64,000 nucleotides of DNA from Biomaibacter acetigenes (lineage in GTDB: Bacteria; Bacillota; Thermosediminibacteria; Thermosediminibacterales; Tepidanaerobacteraceae): positions 1,922,001-1,986,000 of the forward strand of contig NZ_CP033169.1 in assembly GCF_003691585.1 (NCBI RefSeq), written 5' to 3'. The notes under the pieces are model-generated. The model was not told the origin of the DNA. It did no database searches and saw only the letters and a program-made list of their open reading frames with translations. Each line of letters opens with the position of its first letter. Position 1 is the stretch's first letter. Made by a program: the position numbers and the translations under genes. Positions 8,409 to 62,109 of the stretch are shown here, piece after piece.

Positions 8409-8449
8409 CTCCTTTGCAAATGTACTCCCCCTTTCTTCCGAAGGCTTGT

Positions 8450-8607
8450 ACTCCTATTCAACAGGCAGGTTTCCTGGCTGCCGGATCATCTTCTCTGCGC
8501 CTTCCCGGTTTCCCAGTGGCATAGCAGTTTATCCCCGGTTACAGTGGCGGGACCGCTCAGGACTTTCACCTGATTCCCTTTTGACCTTACGGCACCTGTT
8601 GCATATT
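8450..8607 (-). promoter_or_regulatory. Cobalamin (AdoCbl) riboswitch
   Basis: The minus strand carries the B12 box GCCAGGAAACCTGCC (about 8465-8479). Before it come the class-typical pieces TCAGGTGAAAGTCCTGAGCG and CGCCACTGTAACCGGG, in the right order. A terminator follows before btuF. High adenosylcobalamin should end transcription early and shut off the eight-gene corrinoid operon. The aptamer class is unmistakable from these blocks; the exact ends are approximate. Confidence 0.95.
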
Positions 8608-8617
8608 GTTTTTTTAT

Positions 8618-34470: not shown

Positions 34471-34500
34471 CGGAAATCTTTATTAAATAAATATTTTGCT

Positions 34501-34583
34501 TCTCCCTCCGCTGGCATTACCCAGATCAGGTGTAAGGGTCGGAACCACAAGTTCCCTCTCAGCCGGTCAATCCAGCTCCCCTG
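34501..34583 (-). promoter_or_regulatory. TPP (thi-box) riboswitch
   Basis: The minus strand carries GGCTGAGAGGGA, then GACCCTTACACCTGATCTGG, then GTAATGCCAGCGGAGGGA, the conserved TPP aptamer blocks in order. A terminator follows before the gene. It should switch off the four-gene uptake operon when TPP is plentiful. Confidence 0.96.
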
Positions 34584-34598
34584 TTTTTGTTTTACTTA

Positions 34599-42431: not shown

Positions 42432-42503
42432 AGAATCTAATTTAACTTTTTTCATCTTTAGGATGTTTCTTCATGTGAATTTTATAATTTATAACATAAG
42501 TTT

Positions 42504-43689
42504 TTACAGCGCTCTCTTTTTAGTGGCGATATCCACCCATACAGCCAGTACCAGCACCAGGCCTTTTACTATGGTGAGGATGGAGTAGTCAATATTCAGA
42601 AGGCTCATGCCGTTATCTATACTGGCCATAACCAGAGCACCTATGATGGCTCCTGGAATGGTACCTTCACCCCCCAGGGTGCTGGTGCCGCCGATGATGG
42701 CCGAGGCAATGGCATCCAGCTCAAAGAGATTGCCTGCACTGGTAGTAGCCGCATCCAACCGCGAAGTCAGCACGATGCCCGCCAGAGCGGACAGTAAACC
42801 CATTATAAGATATATGGTCATGTTGGTCCTTTTAATATTTATTCCTGATAGGGCGGCGGCTTCTTTGTTTCCGCCTATAGCATATACATATCTCCCAAAG
42901 GTGGTGTTTTGGGCTATAAAGGTAAACAGGACCACCAGTAAAATCACCACTATAACGGGGATGGGGATTCCCTCGTACATGATCATTATAACCGTGAAAA
43001 TGGCCATCAAGCCTACAATCCCTAAAATCTTCAGGATTTCAAGACTCCAGGGCGTCACCGCCAGCCCGTACTTTACGCGTGAATTTCTACCTTTGATTTC
43101 TGAATATAAAAATACAATAACTGCCGCTATTCCTATTACCACACTCCACAAAGGAGGTATATATCCCTGGCCTATGATTTTAAATCCGGCTTTGAGAGGT
43201 GAGATGGTTATGCCCTTCGTAATGAGCAAAATGCCTCCTCGGAATACCAACATAGAGCTCAAAGTCACGATAAAGGCAGGCACACCTCTATAGGCGATCC
43301 AGAACCCCCTGCCACGCGCCTATCATTAAGCCCACCAGGATGGTCACCAGTATGGCAGGAATGGGATTCCAGTGCCACCATACCTGGGCTATGGCTGCCA
43401 CCGCCCCGGTAAAACCGGCCAGAGAACCTACCGAAAGGTCTATGTGGCCTGCTACGATGACCAGCACCATACCTACAGCTAGAATGGATGTTATGGAAAC
43501 CTGCCGTGTGAGCATGGAAAGATTTCTAGGGGTTAAAAATCTCCCTTTTGTCAATATTGTAAAAATAACCCATATGGCAAGCAGGGCAATTATCATGGTG
43601 TATGCTTTTATATCAATATTAATGCTTTTCTTTACGATGGGTTCTCTCTGGCTTTTTACCATACCTAAATCTTTTTCTTTAATAACCAT
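42504..43689 (-). pseudogene. xylH: Xylose-type ABC permease, frameshifted
   Basis: Joined, the two frames give a permease of about 395 residues of the XylH/RbsC family. SILAVGMVLVIVAGHIDLSV (substrate-channel motif) lies in the first part, and AIASAIIGGTSTLGGEGTIP near the C-terminus. The frame breaks after GAWQG at a G5 run (43305-43309); with four G it continues FWIAYRGVPAFIVTLSSM. The ATG at 43689 has GGAGGTGG upstream and overlaps the end of the ATPase gene. A length near 395 fits the xylose rather than the ribose group. Confidence 0.82.
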
Positions 43690-45210
43690 GATGTCCACCT
43701 CCGGTAGCAAGAAGCATTATTTTCTCTTGGTCGGCATCTTTATATAAAAATTCCCCGCTTATACTTCCCTCATGAATTACTAGTATCCTGTCACTCATGC
43801 CAAGTATTTCAGGCAATTCAGAGGAAATCATTATGATACATACTCCCCTGTCTATCAGTTCATTCATTATGTTATAGATCTCATATTTAGCCCCTACATC
43901 TATCCCCCGGGTGGGTTCGTCCAGTATCAATACCTTTGGAGTGGACATCAGCCATTTGGCCAGTACCACCTTTTGCTGGTTTCCACCGCTGAGATTCATG
44001 ACCCTTTGCCGAAAAGACGGGGTCTTTATCCCCAGTTCCTTTACAAACCGTTCTGCAGTCCTTATTTTTTCATTATTGTTTATGACACTCAATGTGGAGA
44101 TTTTTTGCAGATTCGGAAGGGCTATGTTTTCTGCCACATCCATGAGTGGAACCAGGCCATATCTTTTCCTGTCTTCAGAAAGATACGCAATGCCGTGTTT
44201 TATGGCGTCATGGGGATTTCTAATAGTAATCTTTTTATTATCGACAAATATTTCTCCGGTAACTTTGCCCGGGTATGCCCCGAATATAGCCAGGGCCATC
44301 TCTGTTCTACCGGCCCCCATCAGGCCAGCAAGACCCAGAATTTCTCCCTTTTTAAGGCTGAAACTCACATTATCCACGACTTTTTTATCGGGAATTTCAC
44401 TATCATAGACAGTCAGATTTTTTACTTCTAAAAACCGTATCGGCAGGGTTATGTTTTACCCGGGGAAATCTCTGGTAAGCTCCCTGCCTACCATAAGGGA
44501 AATGACTTTATCTTCGGTTAAATTTTTGACGCTGTCGGTAGTAATGGTCCTGCCATCCCTTAATACCGTGATAGAATCGGCTATCTTGAAAACCTCGCCA
44601 AGTTTGTGTGATATATATATGCATGTAACGCCCTTTTGCTTTAATTTCCTGAGGATGTTCAGTAGATGTTCCACTTCGCTTTCCGTCAGGGCTGAGGTAG
44701 GCTCGTCGAGCACCAGAATCTTGGCATTTTTGGATATAGCCTTGGCTATTTCCACCATCTGCTGATGGCCAATACCCAGGTTCATCACTTTTACATAAGG
44801 GTTTATTTCTATATTTAGCTGCTTCAGAATTTCCTTGGTATCGGCGTAGACCTTTATCCAGTCAATTACCCCGTTTTTTTTAGGCTCTTCTCCGAGAAAA
44901 ATGTTTTCCCCCGCGGTCATATATTTCACCAGAGCCAACTCCTGATAGATAATGGATACTCCGGCTCGCTCGCTGTCCTTAATGTTCTTGAATTGTTTCA
45001 ACTGTCCGTCTATTATTATTTCACCCTCATAGGTCCCCTGGGGATATACGCCACTCAATATTTTCATCAGCGTGGATTTGCCGGCGCCGTTTTCTCCGCA
45101 AAGGGCATGGATTTCGCCTTTTTTTTACCCGGAAGTTCACATTATCTAGAGCCTTAACCCCGGGAAATTGCTTGGTAATATTCTTCATTTCAAGTATAAA
45201 TTCACCCCAC
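43679..45210 (-). pseudogene. xylG: Xylose-type ABC ATPase, frameshifted and with a stop
   Basis: This is a double-ATPase sugar importer subunit of about 510 residues. The first cassette shows [16 protein letters not shown] and ILVLDEPTSALTESE; the second GLAGLMGAGRTEM, LSGGNQQKVVLAKWL and VLILDEPTRGIDVG. It has three defects: an extra G in the G4 run at the GTG start (45205-45208), an extra A in an A8 run (45119-45126), and an in-frame TAA (44456-44458) between the cassettes after RDFPG. The TAA is a base substitution, unlike the other breaks. The protein would power the XylF/XylH uptake system. Confidence 0.82.
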
Positions 45211-45301
45211 TATATCACCGCCTGAAATCAATCTGCCTTACGTACAACAAGTTTATTACGCCAAGCGAAGCAAGAGCTGCATACATATTTGGAAGCCGTA
45301 T

Positions 45302-45447
45302 GTCGGAGGTCTGATTAGATAAGATCTGCTGAAAAGACAAATCCTTCAATTCCAACTTCTGGCCTCCGACTTCCGGCATCTGAATAATATAGGGGATTTG
45401 CCTTCTCGGCAAATCCTACTTAATCCGACTTCCGGTCTCCGACCTCT
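45302..45447. repeat. Dispersed palindromic repeat, copy 3 (largest)
   Basis: It starts TGTCGGAGGTCTGATTAG and ends CCGGTCTCCGACCTC. Inside are GGCCTCCGACTTCCGGCATC and a perfect hairpin GGATTTGCC-TTCTC-GGCAAATCC (45394-45416). It appears to be two nested or adjacent units of the family. It lies between the xylF and xylG genes. Confidence 0.7.
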
Positions 45448-45449
45448 AT

Positions 45450-46542
45450 CTATTTAGAATATACATCCTCTTTCTTGAACCAGCCGCTGTCTATGAGTTC
45501 CTTGTCAAGATTATCTTTGGTTATGACCACGGGTTCCAGCAGTATTGAAGGAACAGCTATCTTGCCGTTCTCAAACTGTCTGATTAGCTTCAGGCAGGTC
45601 TTTTACTTCTTTGCCCTTAGCCAGTTCCACTGCCACTTCTGCTGCCTTGACTGCCAGTTTGCGGACATCCTTGAATATGGTCATGGACTGGGTGCCTTCC
45701 AGTATCCTCTTTGCCGCTGCAAGTTCTGCATCCTGGCCTGTGATGGGCACCTTGCCCGCCAATTTCTGGGCTGCCAGAGCCTGGATTATACCTCCGGCAG
45801 TGCCGTCGTTGGGTGCCAGTATCCCTGTACATTGTTCTTGTTAGCCGTAAGGGCGTTTTCCGCAAGTTTCAACGCTTCTTCGGGCTGCCAGTCTTTTATA
45901 GCCTGGTCAAATAATATTTTTACATCGCCCTTATCTACAAGGGGCTGTATATACTTCATGGCGCCCTGTTTGAACAGCTTGGCATTGTTGTCTGTGGGAG
46001 CACCGGCAAACACGAAGTAATTGCCCTTTGGAACCTTTTCTGTCAGATACTTGCCCTGCAGTTCTCCCACTTTTACATTATCGAAGGATAGATAAACATC
46101 CACGTCACAGTTCTTAATCAATCTGTCATAGGATATGACCTTTATGTTAGCCTTGTGGGCCGCTTCTACCAGGGCAGCTGCAGATTCGGCGTTCTGCGGG
46201 TCTAACACCAGCACATCGATGCCCTGGGTTATGAGGTTTTCCACCTGGCTGTTTTGAAGGTTCTCATCATTGTTGGCGGCCTGAACCAAAACTTCCGCTC
46301 CAAGCTCCTCAGCCCTTTTTACAAAGAAATCCCTATCTTTTGTATACCTTTCTTCTCGAAGAGTTGGCAGAGAAAAACCTATTCTTATTTTTTTGCCCTG
46401 CTCCTGGGATTGCCCGGAAGACTGAGCCTGACCGCTGTTTTGGGATTGGCCGGCGGGTTTTTTGGCCGCATCCTGCCACAACAGAGACCATTAAAACCAC
46501 CACCAGAAGCAATACAGTCAATTTTTCCAACCGTTTAAACAC
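45450..46542 (-). pseudogene. xylF: D-xylose-binding lipoprotein XylF, frameshifted
   Basis: Read through, this is a lipoprotein (lipobox VVAGCG) of about 360 residues with the XylF sequence pattern: [52 protein letters not shown] and [20 protein letters not shown]. These match E. coli XylF closely. Three single-base changes break it: an extra C after the lipobox (46464-46465), a missing G (45823-45825) and an extra T near the end (45573-45575). After repair the end reads NGKIAVPSILLEPVVITKDN. Dispersed repeats flank it on both sides. It would bind D-xylose for the XylGH importer. Confidence 0.85.
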
Positions 46543-46742
46543 TATTAACTACCTCCCTGTTTTTTAAATTTGGTTTTAATATAAAATTCAACAAAAACCG
46601 TAATTTGCCTCTGGAAGGTTTTTTGATTGCTCTTGTTTATTTAGCCATTTTTCAAAAAATCTACATCTGTGTAGTAAATTTTTGGTACAAAAAAATACAG
46701 GGCAAAACCTGTTTTAAGCACTCTTTGAAAGTCCATGGGAGA

Positions 46743-46778
46743 TCGGGGACCCACCGAAGGTCGGGGACCCACCGGAGG
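46743..46778. repeat. Two 18-bp direct repeats inside repeat copy 4
   Basis: TCGGGGACCCACCGAAGG is followed directly by TCGGGGACCCACCGGAGG, with only one difference. A sequence like the dispersed family (CCGATGTCTGACCTCCAACA) follows at about 46820-46840. It lies between the two XylF-like genes. Confidence 0.75.
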
Positions 46779-46815
46779 TGGGTATTGAAGGCCGGCGACA
46801 CCGTAAAATAATGTT

Positions 46816-47919
46816 TTAATCCGATGTCTGACCTCCAACATCTTTATTTGATATATTCCTATATACATCCCTCGCTGAATGAAAACCATCTTTTATGACC
46901 GTTTCATCAATATTTGACTTATTTACTGCCACCGGTTCCAGCACATAGTAAGGTACATAGAATTTTCCATCATATATGGTTTGCTTTACATCGGGCTTTT
47001 CATCCCTGGCCAGTTTAATTGCCATCTGAGCCGTTTTTTCCGCCAGTTTATCCAGGGGTTTATACACCGTCATGAGTTGGGTGCCTTCCATGATCCTCTG
47101 GCATCCTGCGATGTCTGCATCCTGCCCCACCACAGGTATTTTGCCCGCCATCCTGTGCTCTGAAAGGGCTTCGATAACTCCTCCCGCCAGGCTATCGTTT
47201 CCGGCCAGCACCGCATCAATTCTTTTCCCGCTCTGTAAGATCTCATCGGTAACCTTGAAAGCATATTCCGCCATCCAGTTTGAAGCCCATTCCTCGGCAA
47301 TAATTTTGATCCTGCCATCTTTAACCCTATCGCCCAACACGTTTTCGTAGCCCTGCTTTATCATGCTGGTATTGTTGTCTGTTTTTGCTCCGTTTACAAT
47401 CAGGTAATTGCCCTCGGGGACTTTTTCCATCAGAGAACGGGCCATCAATTTCCCTACTTCAACGTTGTCAAAGGAAATATAAAGGTCTACGTTGGACCTG
47501 GTGACAAGCCTGTCATAGGAAATGACCCTGACGCCGTTCTTCTGGGCCATCTGCACGGCCGTGGCGGCCTTTTCCATGTCGTTGGGCACCAGTATGAGCA
47601 CATCAATTCTCCTATCCAGCAGATATTTTACCTGTTTCAATTGATCCTCATCATCGTTGTTGGCGTTTTGAACAAAGACATCGGCGCCCAGTTCCTTCAG
47701 CTTTGCCATCAAAATGTCTCGGTCCTTGAGCCACCTTTCTTCCTTGAGGGTTCCCAGTGAAATCCCTATCCGTATTTTACTCTTCTCTTCTTCATTTTTT
47801 AAGTTTTTAGCAGTTACTTTAGAACTGGAATTGTATATTAAAAATCCGGTCAATAGAATTAAGGCAATCAATATGAGCAGTAAAACTACAATTACCGTTT
47901 TTTTCAAGCCCTCGCTCAT
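46816..47919 (-). CDS. Membrane-anchored XylF-like sugar-binding protein
   Basis: The intact protein of about 367 residues has an N-terminal membrane segment (TVIVVLLLILIALILLTGFL) without a lipobox. A XylF-type domain follows: IRIGISLGTLKEERWLKDRD, ISYDRLVTRSNVDLYISFDN, VVGQDADIAGCQRIMEGTQL and the C-terminal DETVIKDGFHSARDVYRN, close to the end of E. coli XylF. It is encoded just after the AraC-type response regulator. An uncleaved anchor is what is described for XylFII, the clostridial xylose sensor that binds LytS. A sensor rather than an uptake role is inferred. The ATG at 47919 is preceded by GGGGAGG at longer spacing. Confidence 0.82.
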   Translation of the reverse strand: MSEGLKKTVIVVLLLILIALILLTGFLIYNSSSKVTAKNLKNEEEKSKIRIGISLGTLKEERWLKDRDILMAKLKELGADVFVQNANNDDEDQLKQVKYLLDRRIDVLILVPNDMEKAATAVQMAQKNGVRVISYDRLVTRSNVDLYISFDNVEVGKLMARSLMEKVPEGNYLIVNGAKTDNNTSMIKQGYENVLGDRVKDGRIKIIAEEWASNWMAEYAFKVTDEILQSGKRIDAVLAGNDSLAGGVIEALSEHRMAGKIPVVGQDADIAGCQRIMEGTQLMTVYKPLDKLAEKTAQMAIKLARDEKPDVKQTIYDGKFYVPYYVLEPVAVNKSNIDETVIKDGFHSARDVYRNISNKDVGGQTSD

Positions 47920-47978
47920 GAAGATATTCACCTCCCCTGTTTTATTGGGTAAGCGCAGGAAGGAACAAGTTGCGCCCT

Positions 47979-49561
47979 TTAAATGTACTTTTCTCTATAA
48001 GCCGTGGGGGTAATGCCGGTGACCTTTTTAAATATCTTGCTGAAATAATTGGGGTCCTGGTATCCCACCCTGCCGGAAATGTCCTTTATGCTCAAATCCG
48101 CCCTCATTAAAAGCTCTTTAGCCCGGCTGACCCTCACATTGGTGAGATAATCACAAAAATTCAAATGGGTCTCTTCTTTGAACAGTTTGCTGAAATAGTG
48201 ATAGCTCATGTTGACCTCCCTCGCCACATCATCGAGCGTTATGTCCTTAGAATAGTTCTCATTTATATATATTTCCGCTCTTTTAACAAGTTCTTTTACT
48301 TCGGAGGTCTTCACGGCCCTCATGTCTTTCATTATTTCCCGAACGTTGGCAATGAATCCGGATTTTAGCCCGCTTATATCCATGCAATTTATCAAATTAG
48401 CTATATGTTTTTGCTCAAGTTTTAGACCATCCTTACGATAATAGGATACTGACCTCATCAAGACAATGGAAAGCTCTACTATTCTGGCCTTTATTTTTTC
48501 CAGATCATTGGTATAGTTTAGGATTAACCATTGAAATATCTCCTCAAATATTTCTAATACCTTTTGCTCCTCTCCCAACAAGGCTTTGTCTATCAGCATT
48601 TTTTCCTTGTTTAGAGGGTAAAAATCCACCGGTCCGTCGGGCATGACAAGGTCCTGGAAATGGGATATGGTTTCACCGTCGGATAATTTGACAGCCCAAT
48701 AGGCCTCTTCGTAGGACTTTAAAAAATTGTCAATACCATAAGGGCTTCCTATTCCAATGGAATAAGATAATGATATGCTCTTTTCCAATAGGTTTTGTAT
48801 TGTTTTTGCTATTTCGATGGAATGGTTTCTTACCGTGTATTCGTCAAAACTTCTATCTACCGGCACAAAAATTACTACTCTATTCAACATGAATGGCCCG
48901 GCAAGGCATCTCACCGACTCCCGGGCGGCATCCCTTATGGCCATGCCTACCTCGAACCTGTCAAGGCTTGATCGGAAATCCTCTCTGTTAGATTCATTCC
49001 CGCCTATGGAGAACAACATCACATAGCCGAAATTCAATGGCATTTCAAAGATATTTTCGTAAAAGGATATATCTTTTATGGAAGCGCTATCAAAAATAAT
49101 GTGTAAATAAACTCTGTTTCTATGTGAGGCATGATTTTCAGGAGTTTTTCTTTTAACTCTACTTCATTTAGCATGGCCTGGCGATTTTGAGCAAGGATGG
49201 CCTCAGCCTTTTTTATTACCTCAATTACCCTGTCTTTATTTATGGGTTTTAAAAGATATTCCATAACTCCAAGGTTAACAGCTTCCCTGGCATAGTTAAA
49301 ATTCTCATAGGCGGTAATGATTACAAATACCATATCGGTATGACGTTTTTTTAACTGTCTGATGGCTTCCAGGCCGTCTATGCCCGGCATCCGGATATCC
49401 ATCAACACTACATCGGGTTTTAACTCCTCGACCTTTTCTATGGCCTCCCTCCCGGACTTTGCCCATCCTGCCACAGAAACATGCTGTATGTATTTTTCCA
49501 CTATAAACCTCAATGAATCTATAACTATCTGCTCATCATCGGCCACGAAGACCTTAAGCAC
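47979..49561 (-). pseudogene. YesN/AraC-type response regulator, frameshifted
   Basis: The product has about 527 residues. A receiver domain begins LKVFVADDEQIVIDSLRFIV, has the phosphoacceptor aspartate in DVVLMDIRMPGIDG near residue 54, and ITAYENFNYAREAV. A long linker follows, then an AraC DNA-binding domain (SKDITLDDVAREVNMSYHYF and KDISGRVGYQDPNYFSKIFK). The frame breaks in a T5 run (49092-49096); one more T gives FFDSASIKDISFYENIFEMP. The GTG at 49561 has GGGGAGGGG upstream. It would answer to the LytS-like kinase and regulate the xylose-type operon. Confidence 0.82.
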
Positions 49562-49563
49562 CA

Positions 49564-51063
49564 CTAACCCCTCCCCTGCCAGCGGCATCTTCAGGATAAC
49601 CTGCGTGCCCTCGCCTTTCCTGCTGAAAATCTCTATAACATCGGAGACCTTATCCGCATTGTAAAACAGCATAAGCCGGTGAATCACATTGTGCATGCCG
49701 ATGCCGCTCAGGTGGGCATCGGTTATGTTGTCTGGAGTTTCCACGGCCAAAATTGAGTGTATGGTAGTCTCGTCCATGCCAAGGCCGTCATCGGACACTT
49801 CTACGGCCACATAGTTATCTGTTTTCCGTACCGAAATCATTATTTTACCGGGCCTTTCCAACCCCTCTATACCATGGATAAAGGCATTTTCTACCACCGG
49901 CTGGATCACCGTACACGGCACTTCAATATCAAGAAGCTCTTCCTTACATCTACGGAAAATTCCACTTTGTCTCCAAACCGGGTCTTCAATATATACATGT
50001 AGGTTCTTACATTATCTATCTCATCTCTGAGAGTAACGGGTTTGTCAAGCCTCCTGAGGTTATACCTGAAAAGATTTGCTACATTTTCAATAAATACAGA
50101 GGACTGCTCGGCCCCCTCCATCAGGGCAAGTTGAGAAGCGGCATTCAAGGTGTTGAATAAAAAATGAGGGTTTATCTGGGACTGGAGGGCCTTGAGCTCC
50201 GCATCCTTTAAAATGCCCTTCATGCGGAGGTTCTGCACCTCCTGTTCCTGAAGCTTCTTCTCCACCTCCGCCTGCTGTTTGATTTTATCTATATAGTTTT
50301 TTATGCTGACGGCCATCCTATTAAAGGCATCGGCCAGCACGTTTACCTCATCATTTGTTTGAATTTTCAAGGGTTCCATGTCAAAATCACCCCCGGATAT
50401 GCGCTCCGCCGAACGGGAGAGCTCAATGATGGGCCGGGTGATTTTATACGTGAAATACATGGCAAGAAAGACATTCAATATCAGTGCGCCCAGTATTAAA
50501 AAAACATTTAAGAAGCTTACAATAGCCATGTTGCCTTTAATGGCATAATATTTCTGGGAACCTTCCTGCAGCTTGTTGTATAAAAGGTCATTGATGTAGA
50601 GTTTTATAAAACCCGCAATCTTGTTGGATTCGGTGAAATGGGCCAGGTATTCGCTGCTAATACGGCCCCTCTTGGCATTCACCGCCGCATCGGTTTCGGA
50701 AAGAAGGCTCTTCATCATATTTCCTATGTCCTTCAGCATTAAACCATTTTTGTCATAACTTATACTCCTGGAAAGCTCTACGGCCTGGTTTGGAGCTTGT
50801 TGCTCAGGGTATAGTAATCCAGCAGCGCTTCGGAGGACTTGGTAGAAAGGTATTTTTCCACACTGGTCTCCAGGGAACTCAAGTCGGAATAAAGGTTATT
50901 TAGATACACATAGTCTATAAATATACTGTTCAGCCTGGAAATGACCAGCCTTGCACTGTAGTACGAGTAAAAGCTGGTGGTGCCCATTAAAATGGTTATT
51001 ATTAGATAATAGACAATGAGTTTTTTTCCTGATTCCCGACAGCTTCCAGAAATTTTTCCCCAT
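49564..51063 (-). pseudogene. LytS/YesM-type sensor histidine kinase, frameshifted
   Basis: Reconstructed, this is a kinase of about 500 residues. A first membrane helix follows MGKNFWKLSGIRKK; an external part and second helix (NVFLILGALILNVFLAMYF) come next, then HAMP (ITRPIIELSRSAERISGGDF) and the His-kinase motif QSQINPHFLFNTLNAAS with the phospho-histidine. The ATPase has VIQPVVENAFIHG and DDGLGMDE. Four indels break it: an extra A (51021-51027), a missing G (50784-50785), a missing A (49940-49941) and an extra G near the stop (49568-49571), which removes the stop and fuses it to the regulator. Confidence 0.82.
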
Positions 51064-51072
51064 GTGATTCAC

Positions 51073-52089
51073 CTATTGCTGCAGTTTTTCCATGCTTTTC
51101 CGGTAAGTATCAAGATTTTCTTTGGTTATTATCTTGACCCCGGTATCGATAAAGGTAGATGTGGTGTCCTTTTCCATAATCTCTATCAATGCCTTTATGC
51201 TTTCGTACCCCATTTTATATGGGTCACTCATAACCGTGCCGTAAATAATGCCTTTGTCGATATATCTCAAGATATCCGGCGTATCCCCATACCCCACGAT
51301 TTTTACGTCTCCCACCCTGTTTAAATCCACCACCACCTGGGAGGTACCTATGGTATCCACCGAATCCATGCAATAAATGGCATCTATTTTTTTACCGCTG
51401 TTCAGGATGGACTGGGTTATCTCTTCAGCGCTCAATATGCCGAATTTGGAATTATATATGTCTGTTACCTGCATGTCGGGATAAGCCTTTATGGCATTCA
51501 AAAAGCCGTTTAATTTCAGATTCTGGTTGGCGGCATCTTTTTGCAGTTCATGGCCATGATCACCGCTATGCCGGCTTTGCCTCCGGTGGCTTTTAACCAT
51601 AATCTTACCGGCTTCTTCCCCCAGCATAAAGCTGTTGGAACCAACAAAAGCCTTGCGCCGGCTCTTTGGGGCATCATTTTCTATGGTGACGACCGGTATC
51701 CCGCCGTTATCGGCCCTGTCTATGAGAGCGGCAAAGTCCCTGTCATAGGATACATGGGTCACTATTCCATCCACCCTTGAGGTAACGGCAATCTCCAGAT
51801 ATTTCATTTCCTCCTGGCTGTCGTTAAACCGGGGGCATTAAATTCCAGCGCTACATTATAATTTTTTGCGGCATCCATAGCGCCCTTGTATAACCTCTTT
51901 CCAGAAAGGATCTACGGAATTGGGCGCCAACCATGTAAAAATGGTATTTCGGAACCGGAGCAAAAACCGATTCACTGGATTTGTATACCTTAAGGCCAGG
52001 CTTCCGAAAAGAGCGATGAGAACCAGCAAAATTATGATTATTATGTTTCTATTGGAAAAATTTATATTATTTATGTTTAACCGTTTCAA
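51073..52089 (-). pseudogene. Membrane-anchored periplasmic sugar-binding protein, heavily frameshifted
   Basis: Repaired, this is a binding protein of about 335 residues with an N-terminal anchor (NIIIIILLVLIALFGSLAL) and a ribose-binding-type fold: ANSVDPFWKEVIQG, SRVDGIVTHVSYDRDFAALI, GIPVVTIENDAPKS and a late KMGYESIKALIEIMEKDTTS. Six single-base indels lie in 460 bases, at 51994, 51922, 51883, 51831, 51591 and 51538. The last two compensate each other and scramble only about 20 residues. The gene stands directly before the kinase and overlaps nothing. Such anchored binding proteins deliver the sugar signal to YesM/LytS kinases. The start is TTG. Confidence 0.75.
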
Positions 52090-52264: not shown

Positions 52265-52787
52265 TTATTTCCTATCAAAATATATATTCTTTCCGGTGGC
52301 TGAAAGGGGAATGCCCACTACTATCTCGCCCTGTATGAGACCCAGTTTGCGGGCCGTTACTCCAATGCGGTACATTATGCGGTTATCCACATTTAAGATG
52401 CTGGCGGTTTTCACTGCAGAGCCCACGGCAATGCCCATATCAATAAGCCTCCAGGCGCACATGGGACCTGCAAACTCGGGACCTTCGCTAAAATCCGGAA
52501 GTTTCGCGCACTCGGGATACCCGCAGGCGCCGCAATTGAGTCCTGCCTTTTTTGCACCCTTGAGGGCTACGAGCAGGACCGCCTCGGAGTTTTCTACATT
52601 CTTACCATCCCGGTCATAGTTTTTCTTGCCGGTTTTTTTCACCGTATGCGGCCATTTCTTTACCCAGCTTTGCCAGGTCATCGCCTTCAACTATTTTTAT
52701 TTCTATAAAGTCCTGGCCTGCGGCTTTAGGGGCGGTTCTGGCAGAAAGCGCCATGAGTTCCGCCACCATTTTTATTGCATCTTTCAT
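52265..52787 (-). pseudogene. DUF2148 ferredoxin-like protein, frameshifted
   Basis: With one A removed from an A7 run (52633-52639), a protein of about 173 residues appears. It starts MKDAIKMVAELMALSARTAP and joins at EKTGKKNYDRDGKNVE to the second frame, which has the cluster motif NCGACGYPEC, and later CAWRLIDMGIAVGSAVKTAS. The family is called ferredoxin domain-containing or DUF2148 and should carry a 4Fe-4S cluster. Its biological role is unknown. The ATG at 52787 follows GGAGGATTTTACC. Confidence 0.83.
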
Positions 52788-52833
52788 GGTAAAATCCTCC
52801 TTTATTTTTTTATATAAAAATATGTTTTCCCTG

Positions 52834-54131
52834 TCAAACCTTATTAAAAAAATTTAACTGACTTGGGGCTTTACCCTGTTTTGAAAGTATCCTTTCCAGA
52901 CGTTTTTTGAGCTCCCGTATTTCCTGTTCCGGAGTAAACCCCAGAAGCCCTTTCTTTTTATAAGCCAGTTCCAGAGCCCTGCGGGTGGCCTGTTCGGCTT
53001 TTGTATAGTCTTTGGTTCTATGCTCGTAAACTTTTGCCAGTTCCACCAGGGCAAAGGCGGTATGTATGTTGTCTTCAGCCATTTTTAGCCACAGCTCTTG
53101 AGCTTCATCCCACCGCCCCAGGCGCTTATAGAGCAGGGAGAGGCGTAGATAAGCCTTTTCGCTGACTCCGGGTATCTCAAGGGCTTTTAAATAGCATTTT
53201 ATGCTTTCCTCGAATATCTCCATATCTTCAAAAATTCTTCCAAGACAGAAAAGTCCTGATCTGAGCAGCCGTCAGAACACAGGGGGTCTTTCAGAGCCCC
53301 GGCCATTTTTATGACCAGAGTAACCAGGGATAAAATATCCATCCGGTTGTGATAAAAAATGGGCTTCAGGGGATAGGGATTTTTATCTCTTAAGAACCTG
53401 AAATATATCGAGGGTATCTCAAAGCTGGGTATATCCCCTTCCCTCTCCAGCGAAAAGAGATTCGCCTCCAGCGATGATAGGCTAACGCTGACCAGGCGCT
53501 CTTTATACAGCCTCCGGGCCGATGAAAGAAGATCCAGGTGAAAAGGCTTTTCCATCGGGTTTTCCATGCGGTTGATTAAGAATCTGGTGGAAAGAAGGGG
53601 GATATCATAAGCTTTGCCGTTAAAGCTCACAACAGACTCAAATTCTTTTAAAAGGTCCTTCAGGCTGTGTAAAACCGCAGGTTCCTCGTTGTAGTCCCTC
53701 ATGAAATACTGAAGGAGTTTGAATTTTTGCTCCTCGAAATATCCTGCACCTATAAGAAAGGCATAGGTGCCCGAACCTCCCGCAAGGCCGGTAGTTTCGG
53801 TATCAATAAATACAGCTTTTGTGAAATTGAAGTTATTGTAGTCGCTATCTTTTGCAATAAGCCCGACAATTTCCGGCGGTATTTCAAAAATATTGGAAAG
53901 CCTCATACCGGCATGACAGAATGTATCTTCATAGGAGTTTACGGCCATCAGATGTTCTCCCAACGGGGTTTTAACGGGGGCTGTATTTAAAATCCTGCAA
54001 ATAAGCTCATTTTTTTGAGCTTGTGAAAAATCCCCGGACTTAAAATTTGCTTTTTCCTTATCGTAAGAATTTACGCCATCCCGGTTTTCATTCTTGCCCA
54101 TGTAGGCTTTTAATTTTTCAGAGAGGTTCAC
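52834..54131 (-). pseudogene. mrfB: MrfB/YprB-like DEDD exonuclease with TPR tail, frameshifted
   Basis: Repaired, the protein of about 432 residues has a ribonuclease-H-like exonuclease domain with FIDTETTGLAGGSGTYAFLI near residue 108, VVSFNGKAYDIPLL near 167 and HNRMDILSLVTLV near 264. These are the DEDD motifs. A tetratricopeptide tail follows (CYLKALEIPGVSEKAYLRLS). The frame breaks near 53240, where one extra G would give VLGRIFEDMEIFEESI. The partner mrfA is immediately upstream. In Bacillus subtilis the MrfA-MrfB pair (formerly YprA-YprB) acts in mitomycin C lesion repair. The start is GTG at 54131. Confidence 0.82.
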
Positions 54132-56444: not shown

Positions 56445-57806
56445 CTATATTTTCAATATCCCTATGGCATTTAAGAAGACTAAAGCAATGAGTACAGGCG
56501 ATACAAACCTTGTTATTATTAAAAAGACATTTAAAAATACCCCATTTTTCAAGCGGCCTCTATTGGAAAGTTCCATTTGAAGATTCCTTTTCCCAAAAAA
56601 CCAGCCTACAAAAATCACTATGAAGATGCCGCCCAGGGGCATCAATATATTAGAAGAAATGTAGTCATATAAATCAAAGAAGGTTTTCCCAAATATCTTT
56701 GTAGCGCCAAGCACCCCAGCCGGGTCTGCCGAAAGTGAAGCCGTAGAACCTATGAGGGCAATGATTCCTGTCGAAAGAACAGTTGCTTTCCATCGAGGCC
56801 ACCCTTTTTCATCTACCAGATATGCCACCGGTACTTCCAAGAGCGATATCATTGCCGTGGTGGCTGCGATGGCAGTCAGCAGGAAAAATACGGCTAAAAG
56901 TACATTGCCCATAGGCATTTTACTGAAGACCATGGGAATAGTAATAAACAAAAGACCTGGCCCAGCATCGGGCTTGAAGCCGAAAGCAAACACTGCCGGA
57001 AATATGGCAAGGCCCGCCATCATAGAGACAACTATATCCGATAAAGCCACTTTGACCGCCGTTGCCGGTATATTCTCTTGTTTTCCAAAATAGCTGCCGT
57101 AGGTGATCATGGTGCCCATGCCCACCGACAGTTTAAAAAACGCAAGGCCCAGGGCTATGAGTAACACATCCCCTTTTATCACTGTAAAATCAGGATTGAA
57201 AAGAAACTTAACTCCCATTGAAGCACCTGGGAGGGTAAGGGCCCGAATATCGCACAATATCAAAAGTATAAATAACAGCGGCATTAAAGCTTTGGTTATG
57301 CGCTCAATACCTTTTTCCACACCCGCTATAATGATAACACTTACTACTAAAAGAACTACAACCTGCCATATAATGGGACTTAAACTATCCGTTATGAGAC
57401 CTTTAAAAATGGTCCCGGTTACATCCGACGTAGCATTTACAAAAGTGCCACCTAATGCGCGAAAAATATAGGAATAAACCCATCCCGCCACACCGGTATA
57501 AAAAAACATAATTAAAAACGATGAGGCTATGCCTGCATAACCTATAAGGGGCCATGCACTGTAGGGTTTTAATTTTTTGAAAGCCCCTACCGCATTGGAA
57601 TTAGTCCTTCTGCCTACGACAATTTCCGATATCATCACAGGTAGGCTGGCAAGTGCCACGCAAATAAGATAAACAATTATGAAAGCAGCTCCTCCGAATT
57701 TTCCTGTTATATAAGGGAACTTCCATATATTTCCCAATCCTACCGCTGAACCCAATGTTGCTGTTAGCACTCCAAAACTTGTAGCGAATTTACCTCTTGT
57801 CTGCAT
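56445..57806 (-). CDS. Sodium-dependent transporter, NSS/SNF family
   Basis: The 453-residue protein has about eleven to twelve membrane segments. It opens with the sodium- and substrate-site sequence LGSAVGLGNIWKFPYITGKF, and continues with FKLSVGMGTMITYGSYFGKQ near residue 225 and FFLLTAIAATTAMISLLEVP near 310. Bacterial NSS proteins import amino acids such as leucine, tryptophan or tyrosine with sodium. The substrate cannot be assigned. It is a single gene, on the same strand as mrfAB, 38 bases before mrfA. Confidence 0.94.
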   Translation of the reverse strand: MQTRGKFATSFGVLTATLGSAVGLGNIWKFPYITGKFGGAAFIIVYLICVALASLPVMISEIVVGRRTNSNAVGAFKKLKPYSAWPLIGYAGIASSFLIMFFYTGVAGWVYSYIFRALGGTFVNATSDVTGTIFKGLITDSLSPIIWQVVVLLVVSVIIIAGVEKGIERITKALMPLLFILLILCDIRALTLPGASMGVKFLFNPDFTVIKGDVLLIALGLAFFKLSVGMGTMITYGSYFGKQENIPATAVKVALSDIVVSMMAGLAIFPAVFAFGFKPDAGPGLLFITIPMVFSKMPMGNVLLAVFFLLTAIAATTAMISLLEVPVAYLVDEKGWPRWKATVLSTGIIALIGSTASLSADPAGVLGATKIFGKTFFDLYDYISSNILMPLGGIFIVIFVGWFFGKRNLQMELSNRGRLKNGVFLNVFLIITRFVSPVLIALVFLNAIGILKI

Positions 57807-58594: not shown

Positions 58595-58783
58595 ATGGCC
58601 CTTAAGAAAAAACTTTTTGCCCAAAAGAGGACTTTTGCTCGAGAGGAAATAGGTTCAAACATTTTCAAGCCTGCCGGCAGACCTCATCCTCGGGAAGTGA
58701 GATCGCAGATTGCGCAGCTGGAAAGCAACCAGCCAGGCACCCGAAAAGATGTAAAGATTAAGATGGAGAAAAAAATGAATTAA
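58595..58783 (+). CDS. Small basic protein, unknown
   Basis: The 62-residue, strongly basic protein begins MALKKKLFAQKRTFAREEIG and includes KPAGRPHPREVRSQIAQLES. The ATG follows GAGGAGGATGCTAT, a very good ribosome site. No cysteine or membrane segment is seen. Charge suggests RNA or ribosome contact, but this is only an inference. It may be in an operon with the small cysteine-containing protein upstream. Its last bases overlap the end of the convergent phosphatase gene. Confidence 0.6.
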   Translation: MALKKKLFAQKRTFAREEIGSNIFKPAGRPHPREVRSQIAQLESNQPGTRKDVKIKMEKKMN

Positions 58784-59942
58784 AAATATTTGACAGTTAC
58801 ATTTTTACCCATTTTTTCAAGTATAGTTATTATATCCCTTACTATATTTAATTTTATAGAAAGGTCCTTCGGAAAATCCGGATTCTGGTGGGCAGGGTTT
58901 ACTGCTTTTCCCAGCAGAAAGGTCAAATCGGTGGCGTCCACAAAGATTTTCGCCAGTCTTGAGGCGCCATCCTTTTTATTTAACTGTCGCAAATCGGAGA
59001 ACCTGGCCCGGGGTAAAGCATACTCCTGCAGGATTTGTCTTGTGCGAGCCAGAGTAAGTACCCCTTCGGTTACGAGGTCTATGCCTTTTATACTGCCGAC
59101 GGGCGGAATATCAGGGTCTACAAATTCGGCAGAGGTAACAAGCTCCTTCCGCAGGATTTAGATACTATCCTGGCGGCAGTCCCTCCGCATACCACTTTTA
59201 CTCCGGGTTCACCCATGAGCAATTCCACCACTCTGCCGTCATCGGCGGGATTCTGGGGTGGTCCGGTAAATACGGTCACCCGGCGGGGCCTTATGACCTT
59301 TAATGCGGCAACGGTGGCATCATCTCCCGCTCTATCCAGATAAAAATTGGAAGTAACGGTAGTAATAAGCCTCACGAGACTCTTGGGAGTGGTTTCGGTC
59401 TGCGACACTTTCTCTATATATCCGGCTATATTTTCCCACTGCCATCCCAGGTTCAAAAGCCCTCCCACGCCGGCATGCACAACTCCGTCGCTCACCGCTA
59501 TCAACATGTCATTTTCTTCCACTTTTATGCGGGTTTCGGTCAGCTTTTTACCAGCAATCTCGCGTTTTACTCCATTTATTTTTTCTATCTGGCCATTTCT
59601 CAAAAGGAAAACCGGGGGATTATCATATTCCACTATATGACAGTTACATTTATCATCCACCGTTATTATAGTGAAAGTGGAATAGGCTATCTTCCGGATT
59701 CTGCAAACCGGCAAGGTGGATACTATGGTCTTCACAGTCTCCTCGATAGTAGCGCCATCTTTTAGCATGGTGGCGGCTATTTTTGTGGTAAGAGTTGAAA
59801 GTATATTGGCCTTGACACCGCTTCCGAGGCCGTCGGCCAGCACTAAAATAGTCTTTTCCGGACTACGGACTATCTCGACGCTGTCACCGCAGAGTTCCTC
59901 ACCGAATTTATTTATGCTTTCCCAGTAAATATCAGTCCTCAT
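58780..59942 (-). pseudogene. SpoIIE-type PP2C phosphatase, frameshifted
   Basis: The product has about 387 residues after repair. The phosphatase domain spans about residues 1-230, with LVLADGLGSGVKANILSTLT near 34, NDMLIAVSDGVVHAGVGG near 150 and DRAGDDATVAALKVI near 210, the metal-binding aspartates of PP2C/SpoIIE enzymes. A second domain follows (VTVFTGPPQNPADDGRVVEL, VKVVCGGTAARIVSK). One A missing at 59157-59159 breaks the frame; repair gives ILRKELVTSAEFVDPDIPPV. It is coupled to the hydrogenase-like sensor gene by overlap and probably dephosphorylates a Ser/Thr-phosphorylated regulator. Confidence 0.83.
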
Positions 59943-61674
59943 GTTCATCTCTTTCACCCGGCATCTCATCGATTAAAAGCTGCTTTACCTTGTTTAACAT
60001 AACTTTTGTTTCCGCGGTGGTTTCGCCGAGTAAGCTGGCGATCTCCTGAGCTACTCTCATCTGGTTTTCTATGACCTGCTGAGTGGTTTCGAGAGTCTTT
60101 TGCCTCACTTCCATATTTTTCTGCCGTGCTTTTTCCCGGGCTGTTATGTCAGATATTATTCCGATTATGAGATTGTGGCCTTTGAGATAATATATATTCT
60201 GTAATGTAATCAGGCCATAGTTTTTTATAACTACCTTTTTATTGATTATATTTTTTCGGGTTTGCCCGACCAGTCTAAAATCATCATCATTGAACAAACA
60301 GTTCAGAGGCTTGTGGTTAAAACTGCCTTTTGGTATTTGAAACATGTATTCGGCAGCAGGGTTCATCTCCTGGATTTTCATGTCTTCGTCCACAGCTATG
60401 ATGGCGTTGGGCGTGGATTCAATTATGAGGTTTGAAAGGGATTCTGCCCTGCTTCTCATATATGGCATGCACATATGGATTTCGGCCATGCCGTTGTATA
60501 CCGCTATGGCCTTTTCCCTGCAGGAATTATACCCGCAGGCGCCGCAGTTCAGTTCATGTTCGGGAGCATATTTTCCTATCTTTGCCAGTATGTCTTTTAT
60601 TTCATCCTCGGACGGATATTTTATTTCTACTTTCATAGCCGAAAAATGCCTGGAAAAATCAAGATCATGATATCCTTCCGGGAGCAAGCCGGAATCATCC
60701 ATAGATTCAGAACCCATACTCAGCGCAAAATCCTTTATGCATTCCAGCCGCTCAAATACTCCGCGTCCGGTACTTCCTACGGCAGGCCCATTACTGCAGC
60801 TTCCGTGACAGGCATTCATCTCTATCCAGGTATTTTTCAGCCTGCCTTTTTTTAATTCTTCAAGAAACTCCATACAGCTTTCCAGCCCATCAACGCTTAT
60901 ATAACGTCGCCATTGTTCTTTTAAGAGGGGTTTTATGGTCTTAAAGGTGCCACCAGGAACCGGATAAAAATTTGCATCATCGGAAAAACCGCTTTCCTCA
61001 ACACAATCCTCCAGTGCGGGATTTATGCCCTGTTCCGAACACCATGCCTTTACCTCTTCGAAAGTCAGCACGGCATCCACATCATGTCTGTTGTCATCAT
61101 GGATCTCTGACTTTTTGGCAAGACATGGACCGATAAAAACTACCTTCGAATGTCCTTTCATCTTTTTTAAATACCTTCCATGGGCTACCATGGGAGAAAC
61201 CACCGGAATCATGCAATTTATCAATTCGGGATAATATTTTTGAATAAGATAATTTATAGCAGGACAGGCGGTGGTGATGATATTGGATTTCCCTTTATCG
61301 TTATAATGGCCTGCATAATCCCGGGCTATGAGCCGGGCACCCATGGATGTCTGATAAACTGCGGCAAACCCCAGTTTTTTTAATGCACTGACCACCTGTC
61401 CGTAATGCTGAAAATAAAAAGCTCCCGCAAAGGAAGGAGCGATGCTTGCCGCCACATCTTTATTTTCTGAGAGAAGTTTTTTAACTTTCTCCACATCGCT
61501 TTTCACGGTCTTGGCATTCTGGGGACATACCGTGAGACATGTACCGCAGGTAATGCACCTTTGCTCGACTATCTCGGCCTGATTGTTTTTCATTCGTATG
61601 GCCTTAACGGGGCAGGTCCTGATACATTTATAACAATTTTTGCAGTTAGCTCTGGAAAAGTTTATAACTTCCAT
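59932..61674 (-). CDS. [FeFe]-hydrogenase-like PAS sensor protein
   Basis: The 580-residue protein combines two 4Fe-4S motifs (CKNCYKCIRTC at 11-21, CITCGTCLTVC at 40-50), a hydrogenase-like H-cluster domain, a CGACGYNSC cluster motif near 377-385, a PAS domain (about 412-515) and a coiled-coil tail. The four H-cluster cysteines are present: TTACP (137), IGPCLAKKSE (184), and C289 and C293 in MNACHGSCSNG. The cysteine before Cys137 that relays protons in catalytic enzymes is Ala136. This pattern is typical of sensory [FeFe] hydrogenases, which signal H2 or redox state. It is coupled to a SpoIIE phosphatase. Confidence 0.9.
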   Translation of the reverse strand: MEVINFSRANCKNCYKCIRTCPVKAIRMKNNQAEIVEQRCITCGTCLTVCPQNAKTVKSDVEKVKKLLSENKDVAASIAPSFAGAFYFQHYGQVVSALKKLGFAAVYQTSMGARLIARDYAGHYNDKGKSNIITTACPAINYLIQKYYPELINCMIPVVSPMVAHGRYLKKMKGHSKVVFIGPCLAKKSEIHDDNRHDVDAVLTFEEVKAWCSEQGINPALEDCVEESGFSDDANFYPVPGGTFKTIKPLLKEQWRRYISVDGLESCMEFLEELKKGRLKNTWIEMNACHGSCSNGPAVGSTGRGVFERLECIKDFALSMGSESMDDSGLLPEGYHDLDFSRHFSAMKVEIKYPSEDEIKDILAKIGKYAPEHELNCGACGYNSCREKAIAVYNGMAEIHMCMPYMRSRAESLSNLIIESTPNAIIAVDEDMKIQEMNPAAEYMFQIPKGSFNHKPLNCLFNDDDFRLVGQTRKNIINKKVVIKNYGLITLQNIYYLKGHNLIIGIISDITAREKARQKNMEVRQKTLETTQQVIENQMRVAQEIASLLGETTAETKVMLNKVKQLLIDEMPGERDEHED

Positions 61675-61920
61675 TTAATTGTCCCCCAGTATGTTTTGCC
61701 TGAAAAAATCTTCCACCCTGTCTTTATCCACCGAGTAGGGCCCCTTATCATCAATCTTTACCGAAACGGGTTTTGTGCAATTGCCAAAACAGAACTCCGC
61801 CTTGAGTTCGACCTCATTTTCCAGATGGTTTTGCTTTATGAGTTTCTCCAATGCCCTTATTATATCATAGGACCCCTTGAGATGGCAGGAACTGCCTACA
61901 CACACATATATTGTTTTCAT
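61675..61920 (-). CDS. Thioredoxin-like [2Fe-2S] ferredoxin
   Basis: The 81-residue protein has the thioredoxin-like 2Fe-2S fold of the NuoE/HydC class: IYVCVGSSCHLKG near residue 4 and the second cysteine pair in KAEFCFGNCTKPVSVKI near 49. It would pass electrons to or from the hydrogenase-like sensor whose ATG begins right after its TAA. The ATG at 61920 has AAGGGGATAGC upstream; an earlier in-frame start lacks a ribosome site. It is the first gene of the sensor operon. Confidence 0.87.
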   Translation of the reverse strand: MKTIYVCVGSSCHLKGSYDIIRALEKLIKQNHLENEVELKAEFCFGNCTKPVSVKIDDKGPYSVDKDRVEDFFRQNILGDN

Positions 61921-62109
61921 GCTATCCCCTTGCTTTAGGTCGGCTCCTTTATAAGCCATATTCTGCAAAAAATTGTCTTCCAATGGATATATACTCCGAT
62001 ACATTTTTCGATATATTTATTATAACTCATCTTAATATATATTGTCAATATTTAACAATCCAATTTAAAATTACCCTTTCAATCCCTTGAAGCGTTTATC
62101 CATCGAAAG

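Follow-up and report, generated by a model that had tools for sequence, protein, structure and literature searches.

Among the [FeFe] hydrogenases classified in HydDB, those of group C are linked only to kinase, chemotaxis or phosphatase outputs, and group C3 is listed as 'phosphatase-linked (putative)', with H2 sensing as its putative role (PMC5037454). Fermenting bacteria from gut, rumen and digester habitats commonly carry sensors of group C3. In Thermoanaerobacterium, HfsB is an [FeFe] hydrogenase with a PAS domain and HfsC a serine phosphatase (PMC11837493), and strains deleted for hfsB shift toward ethanol, with a higher ethanol yield (PMC5707799; PMC11837493). For R. albus, a 111-fold change in co-culture, attributed to the H2 level, was reported for a cluster of eight genes that include a sensory hydrogenase, a phosphatase, AdhE and a ferredoxin hydrogenase (PMC6776011), and a kinase has been proposed as a partner in this HydS system (Zheng 2014, as cited in PMC5707799).

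The C-terminal cysteine motif Cx2Cx4Cx16C has been described for groups C and D, and reversible H2 turnover persists in the group D protein TamHydS despite its missing proton-transfer cysteine (PMC8163306). Hydrogenases are also known to be controlled by Rex (PMC6391272, PMC8457756), with TTGTTAANNNNTTAACAA as the clostridial operator consensus (PMC8457756). Here we analyze a HydS locus in a 64,000-nucleotide stretch of the Biomaibacter acetigenes genome (hereafter the window; NZ_CP033169.1, positions 1,922,001 to 1,986,000) together with its relatives, and document its gene order, domains, residues, association statistics and operator conservation.

Results

The original prediction of a 2Fe-2S protein, an H-cluster/PAS protein and a SpoIIE phosphatase is confirmed: three genes on the minus strand encode a thioredoxin-like [2Fe-2S] protein, a HydS-like protein and a SpoIIE/PP2C phosphatase, and all three open reading frames are supported by Pfam matches. 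The features of the locus, in the direction of transcription, are as follows:

62042-62058, minus strand: Rex operator-like site TTGTTAAATATTGACAA (17 bases; 18 in relatives)
62019-62048, minus strand: sigma-A type promoter, TTGACA-N18-TATAAT (12 of 12 consensus bases)
61675-61920, minus strand: thioredoxin-like [2Fe-2S] protein, 81 residues, ATG at 61920 (PF01257, E=4e-7)
59932-61674, minus strand: HydS-like sensory [FeFe] hydrogenase with PAS domain, 580 residues (Pfam, alignments, predicted model with pLDDT 85.6)
61495-61674, minus strand: two N-terminal 4Fe-4S motifs, C11/14/17/21 and C40/43/46/50 (56-homologue alignment)
60784-61461, minus strand: H-cluster domain, residues 72-297 (PF02906, E=4e-52)
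60469-60546, minus strand: C-terminal 4Fe-4S motif Cx2Cx4Cx16C, C377/C380/C385/C402 (PF04060)
60145-60453, minus strand: PAS domain, residues 408-510 (PF00989, E=5e-7)
60001-60075, minus strand: conserved C-terminal helix, residues 534-558 (VIENQMRVAQEIASLLGETTAETKV), proposed transmitter to the phosphatase (alignment, model, co-occurrence)
59118-59969, minus strand: SpoIIE-type PP2C phosphatase as read in the assembly, 283 residues, truncated (PF07228, E=4e-15)
58783-59157, minus strand: rest of the phosphatase C-terminal part, residues 272-396, out of frame (tblastn with the homologue from the sister genome G001)

The genes are indeed tightly coupled, the first two abutting and those of hydS and the phosphatase overlapping by 38 bases; the range 59932-61920 originally assigned to all three, on the other hand, spans the first two only, with the phosphatase at 59118-59969. 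For the thioredoxin-like protein the longest open reading frame starts at 62004, relatives are mostly 80-100 residues long, and the pattern C-x4-C...C-x3-C is found in 96 of 96 homologues. Nearly all order-level relatives, and most of 80 other loci from genome contigs, have the three genes in this sequence (thioredoxin-like protein, then HydS, then phosphatase); the arrangement is therefore, judged by gene order, more than chance.

Assigned by its features against the HydDB description, the set fits best as a phosphatase-linked sensory [FeFe] hydrogenase of group C3. It shares with that group the H-cluster domain with four ligand cysteines, an N-terminal ferredoxin domain (here two 4Fe-4S motifs), the C-terminal FeS motif Cx2Cx4Cx16C, a PAS domain and an adjacent serine/threonine phosphatase, and differs from it in being an orphan with a predicted Rex operator. 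The group D protein TamHydS (PMC8163306, PMC13104023) resembles the window HydS in its N-terminal clusters, its C-terminal Cx2Cx4Cx16C motif and its lack of the proton-relay cysteine, but lacks a PAS domain, and descriptions of it mention no such phosphatase; the 'no PAS' definition of group D does not apply to the window protein, in which the PF00989 match is present. The comparison with the hfs locus drawn in the original prediction is correct, since hfsABCD also has a PAS-bearing sensor (HfsB) followed by a serine phosphatase (HfsC; PMC11837493); there, however, the hfsD hydrogenase is adjacent, whereas none is adjacent here.

We found no catalytic hydrogenase near the window set, and no hfsD-type hydrogenase directly downstream at any of the eight family f1 loci flanked on each side by 4 kb or more. 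Within the order a hydrogenase neighbors the set at one (L046) of 13 loci with enough flank; outside the order it does so at most loci (38 of 58 overall). The genome itself contains other [FeFe] hydrogenases, with the best HydA2-like gene about 635 kb from the set, as well as HydF for H-cluster maturation. A 482-residue gene that follows the phosphatase in family f2 was considered as an hfsD hydrogenase and rejected, as it encodes a PAS/sigma-54 activator.

The R. albus cluster likewise combines sensor and phosphatase and has a proposed H2-sensing role; its kinase, AdhE and HydA2, by contrast, are not at the window locus. Many gut and rumen clostridia share a common layout of AdhE, kinase, one or two thioredoxin-like proteins, HydS, phosphatase and hydrogenase. 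The kinase of these clusters, about 249 residues long and with RIO/APH features, belongs to a family present in 31 of the checked loci and in 2 of 200 genomes of the phylum. The absence of a kinase from the window, already pointed out from the sequence, extends for this dedicated R. albus type to the entire order, as a profile search found the family in none of its 22 genomes; the same profile does match in G177 and G209.

Within HydS, the four H-cluster cysteines C137, C184, C289 and C293 are present as predicted, and each is invariant in 56 of 56 homologues, as are Gly182 and the C-terminal cysteines C377, C380, C385 and C402; the N-terminal 4Fe-4S cysteines are all invariant as well, except for C43 (53 of 56). 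The PAS region shows PAS-like secondary structure in the predicted model. With CpI equivalences assigned by motif, Gly182 occupies the Met353 place of the prototypical enzymes and Asn287 that of Met497, and the T. maritima HydS is reported with Gly at the Met353 position, too. HydS also carries Ala136 in place of the proton-relay cysteine, exactly as first noted, but the use of this residue as an argument for a sensor is weak. We rejected it as a sensor mark, given that the position is Ala in 32, Cys in 16 and Ser in 6 of the 56 aligned homologues and that TamHydS turns over H2 without the equivalent cysteine; because 16 of 56 relatives keep Cys, residue 136 by itself cannot, on this alignment, separate sensor from catalyst.

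Conservation within the sensor instead peaks near its C-terminus. Mean identity to the window protein across 56 homologues is 84% for residues 534-558, which fall within model helices 511-549 and 554-569, as compared with 66% for the FeS region, 45% for the H domain and 39% for the PAS domain. Among 200 genomes of the phylum, the phosphatase is encoded directly downstream of 67 of 67 HydS proteins that align through the C-terminal region vs. 0 of 49 that end before it, and HydS directly upstream of 67 of 68 phosphatases, where the 67 HydS genes are not independent by descent and the phosphatase-bearing genomes cover 45 genera. Of ten earlier-ending HydS proteins examined, most carry a fused sigma-54 activator domain or histidine kinase, and one shows no visible output domain. 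Because it is both the best-conserved part of the sensor and part of the C-terminal region whose presence tracks the phosphatase so closely, helix 534-558 is probably the signal-transfer element that switches the phosphatase, and this near-perfect link provides a small and specific element to mutate.

The same observations bear on the possibility that HydS is a slow catalytic hydrogenase, linked to ferredoxin or NADH via its 2Fe-2S partner, with a phosphatase that acts on the hydrogenase set or is merely co-transcribed. Intact H-cluster and electron-transfer cysteines, retention of the proton-relay cysteine in 16 of 56 relatives and reversible H2 turnover by TamHydS in the absence of the usual proton-transfer residues (PMC8163306) are all compatible with catalysis, and a 2026 paper considers that HfsABC might be a working hydrogenase without HfsD. 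Both the perfect coupling between C-terminal region and phosphatase (67/67 vs. 0/49) and the variable H domain next to a near-fixed helix (45% vs. 84%) point to signaling, however, and G182 and N287 take the place of the methionines usually found close to the diiron site, so that we regard a catalytic role as unlikely.

Upstream of the set, the promoter looks Rex-controlled as judged from its sequence. The -10 box TATAAT lies at 62019-62024 and the perfect -35 box TTGACA falls inside the Rex operator-like site, a layout that recurs with 12 of 12 promoter bases and a full 18-base operator in most family relatives, as in TTGTTAAAATATTGACAA of G001. The consensus site TTGTTAAN4TTAACAA is conserved at this promoter in the order, and the window copy has a spacer of 3 bases vs. 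4 in relatives, where the missing base may be another assembly indel. At 16 of 17 loci from the order, no Rex match elsewhere in the locus is better than the one 270-400 bp upstream of hydS; in the exception, L046, two Rex sites are found about 4.6 kb upstream, where a longer hydrogenase operon starts. Outside the order, Rex consensus sites upstream of the module are rare (2 within 1 kb, about 73 kb scanned), against a background there of 18 per 972 kb at two mismatches. Genome-wide, sites with at most one mismatch number 3-5, and those just upstream of rex itself in G000, G001, G010 and G019 serve as a positive control; all 22 genomes examined from the order contain a Rex-family gene. In the open-access literature we found no description of a stand-alone C3 set under Rex control. 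With a Rex operator at its -35 box, the unit would therefore be made at high NADH/NAD+, as when H2 accumulates, and the site thus yields a prediction of how the set is switched on.

The Rex operator and the redox partner protein together suggest redox integration and are consistent with a unit that senses general redox state, by way of ferredoxin or of oxygen damage to its clusters, and not H2, the H-cluster then being a probe of redox or cofactor status. Against this, the H-cluster ligands are strictly kept in all 56 homologues and the R. albus cluster follows the H2 level (PMC6776011), and we hold general redox sensing to be improbable, if anything slightly more so than catalysis.

As read in the assembly the phosphatase is cut short, full-length relatives having 390-396 residues. 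A tblastn search with the G001 protein places residues 1-271 in frame -3 and 272-395 in frame -2, with a one-base shift near 59150. The PP2C core is intact: D29, D46, D161, D216 and D217 are invariant in 66 homologues, and the predicted model matches the SpoIIE structure 5mqh (E=4.5e-16). While the PP2C fold and metal-site aspartates are shared with the SpoIIE/RsbU phosphatases, the window family differs by a further, conserved alpha/beta domain at the C-terminus, about 160 residues long (L034:7901-9091, residues about 235-396), which has no Pfam match and for which a PDB search by sequence and fold returned no specific match. A profile search of the loci examined identified 88 intact single-frame phosphatases beside HydS, a few genomes being counted twice.

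Relative to G001, frame changes affect 4 of 17 well-matched window genes, or about a fifth, vs. 0 of 28 when G007 proteins are placed on G001, and since the assembly is so rich in breaks the frameshift in the phosphatase is probably a sequence error. Decay of the module in this strain, with a real frameshift and a phosphatase either inactive or working without its C-terminal domain, is the most doubtful of the alternatives: the core itself is intact and breaks after it also occur in G014, G019 and G023, but the break points differ, two lying in C runs, full-length genes exist in G001 and other relatives, and frame changes abound in this assembly and not in G001. A programmed frameshift was also rejected, as break points vary between genomes, in-frame relatives exist and the assembly is indel-rich.

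Apart from the set, single-base frame changes interrupt two further genes of the window (52268-54131; 173 and 435 residues in the sister genome), several transporter and regulator open reading frames at about 42500-51800 look similarly fragmented, and another broken gene is found in flanking DNA (L052). Also in this genome, an H-cluster-like open reading frame of 344 residues (L009) contains an in-frame TAA and may represent an assembly error or a decayed gene.

Discussion

The window set is an ordinary, conserved member of a known sensory class, to which our analysis adds a candidate transmitter helix, an order-specific stand-alone form without an R. albus type kinase, and a conserved promoter with predicted Rex control. 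We consider it probable that the three genes constitute a sensor-effector unit of group C3, in which an H2 or redox signal would pass via HydS to the phosphatase and Rex would set expression. Counting against this reading are the broken phosphatase frame of the assembly, the window Rex site that is one base short and the lack of a catalytic hydrogenase nearby. The central proposal of the original prediction, a sensor acting through its phosphatase, is thus the part that fits best and matches HydDB C3, whereas the support once drawn from Ala136 is weak.

Phosphatases of the SpoIIE/RsbU family are known to be controlled by a preceding helix or by a partner. For the unit described here, we propose that the H-cluster of HydS serves either to bind H2 or to register how reduced the ferredoxin/H2 couple is, and that HydS is connected to cellular electron carriers by its N-terminal clusters and its thioredoxin-like [2Fe-2S] partner. 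The signal would then travel through the C-terminal FeS/PAS region to the conserved C-terminal helix, which may contact and switch the co-translated SpoIIE-type phosphatase, and the latter would in turn dephosphorylate a protein controlling fermentation or hydrogenase genes. Rex, putatively bound at the operator overlapping the -35 box, would set expression, its repression being lifted at high NADH/NAD+.

More tentatively, the stand-alone unit of the order may join two signals, with NADH/NAD+ determining its amount through Rex and the H-cluster governing the action of the phosphatase through the near-invariant 25-residue helix, on a target other than the R. albus type kinase partner. If true, this would constitute a separate H2-to-dephosphorylation pathway and not the kinase-phosphatase pair proposed before. 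The stand-alone three-gene form also offers a minimal system for testing H2-dependent dephosphorylation.

HydS-type domains are found with sigma-54 activators as well. A survey of sigma-54 regulons lists activators carrying such a domain (PMC6615313), and direct fusions of HydS to sigma-54 activators are common in the phylum (L143, L145, L147, L148). The B. acetigenes genome encodes one about 115 kb from the module (L051:8301-10928), a second HydS-like protein of about 887 residues fused to PAS, sigma-54 activator and HTH domains; it adjoins multi-subunit hydrogenase genes, and the gap before the next hydrogenase genes contains a -24/-12 site, TGGCATGAGGTTTGCA, conserved in G000, G001 and G007. 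Perfect -24/-12 sites also occur just after the sigma-54 activator gene at L045 (TGGCACATTATTTGCA, L045:13329) and L047 (TGGCACACTATTTGCA, L047:7566). Since they lie near the start of the next gene, a sodium symporter related to the one at 56445-57806 of the window, these two sites probably serve that transporter. Elsewhere on the minus strand of the window, a cobalamin riboswitch is found at 8447-8614 and a TPP riboswitch at 34486-34592.
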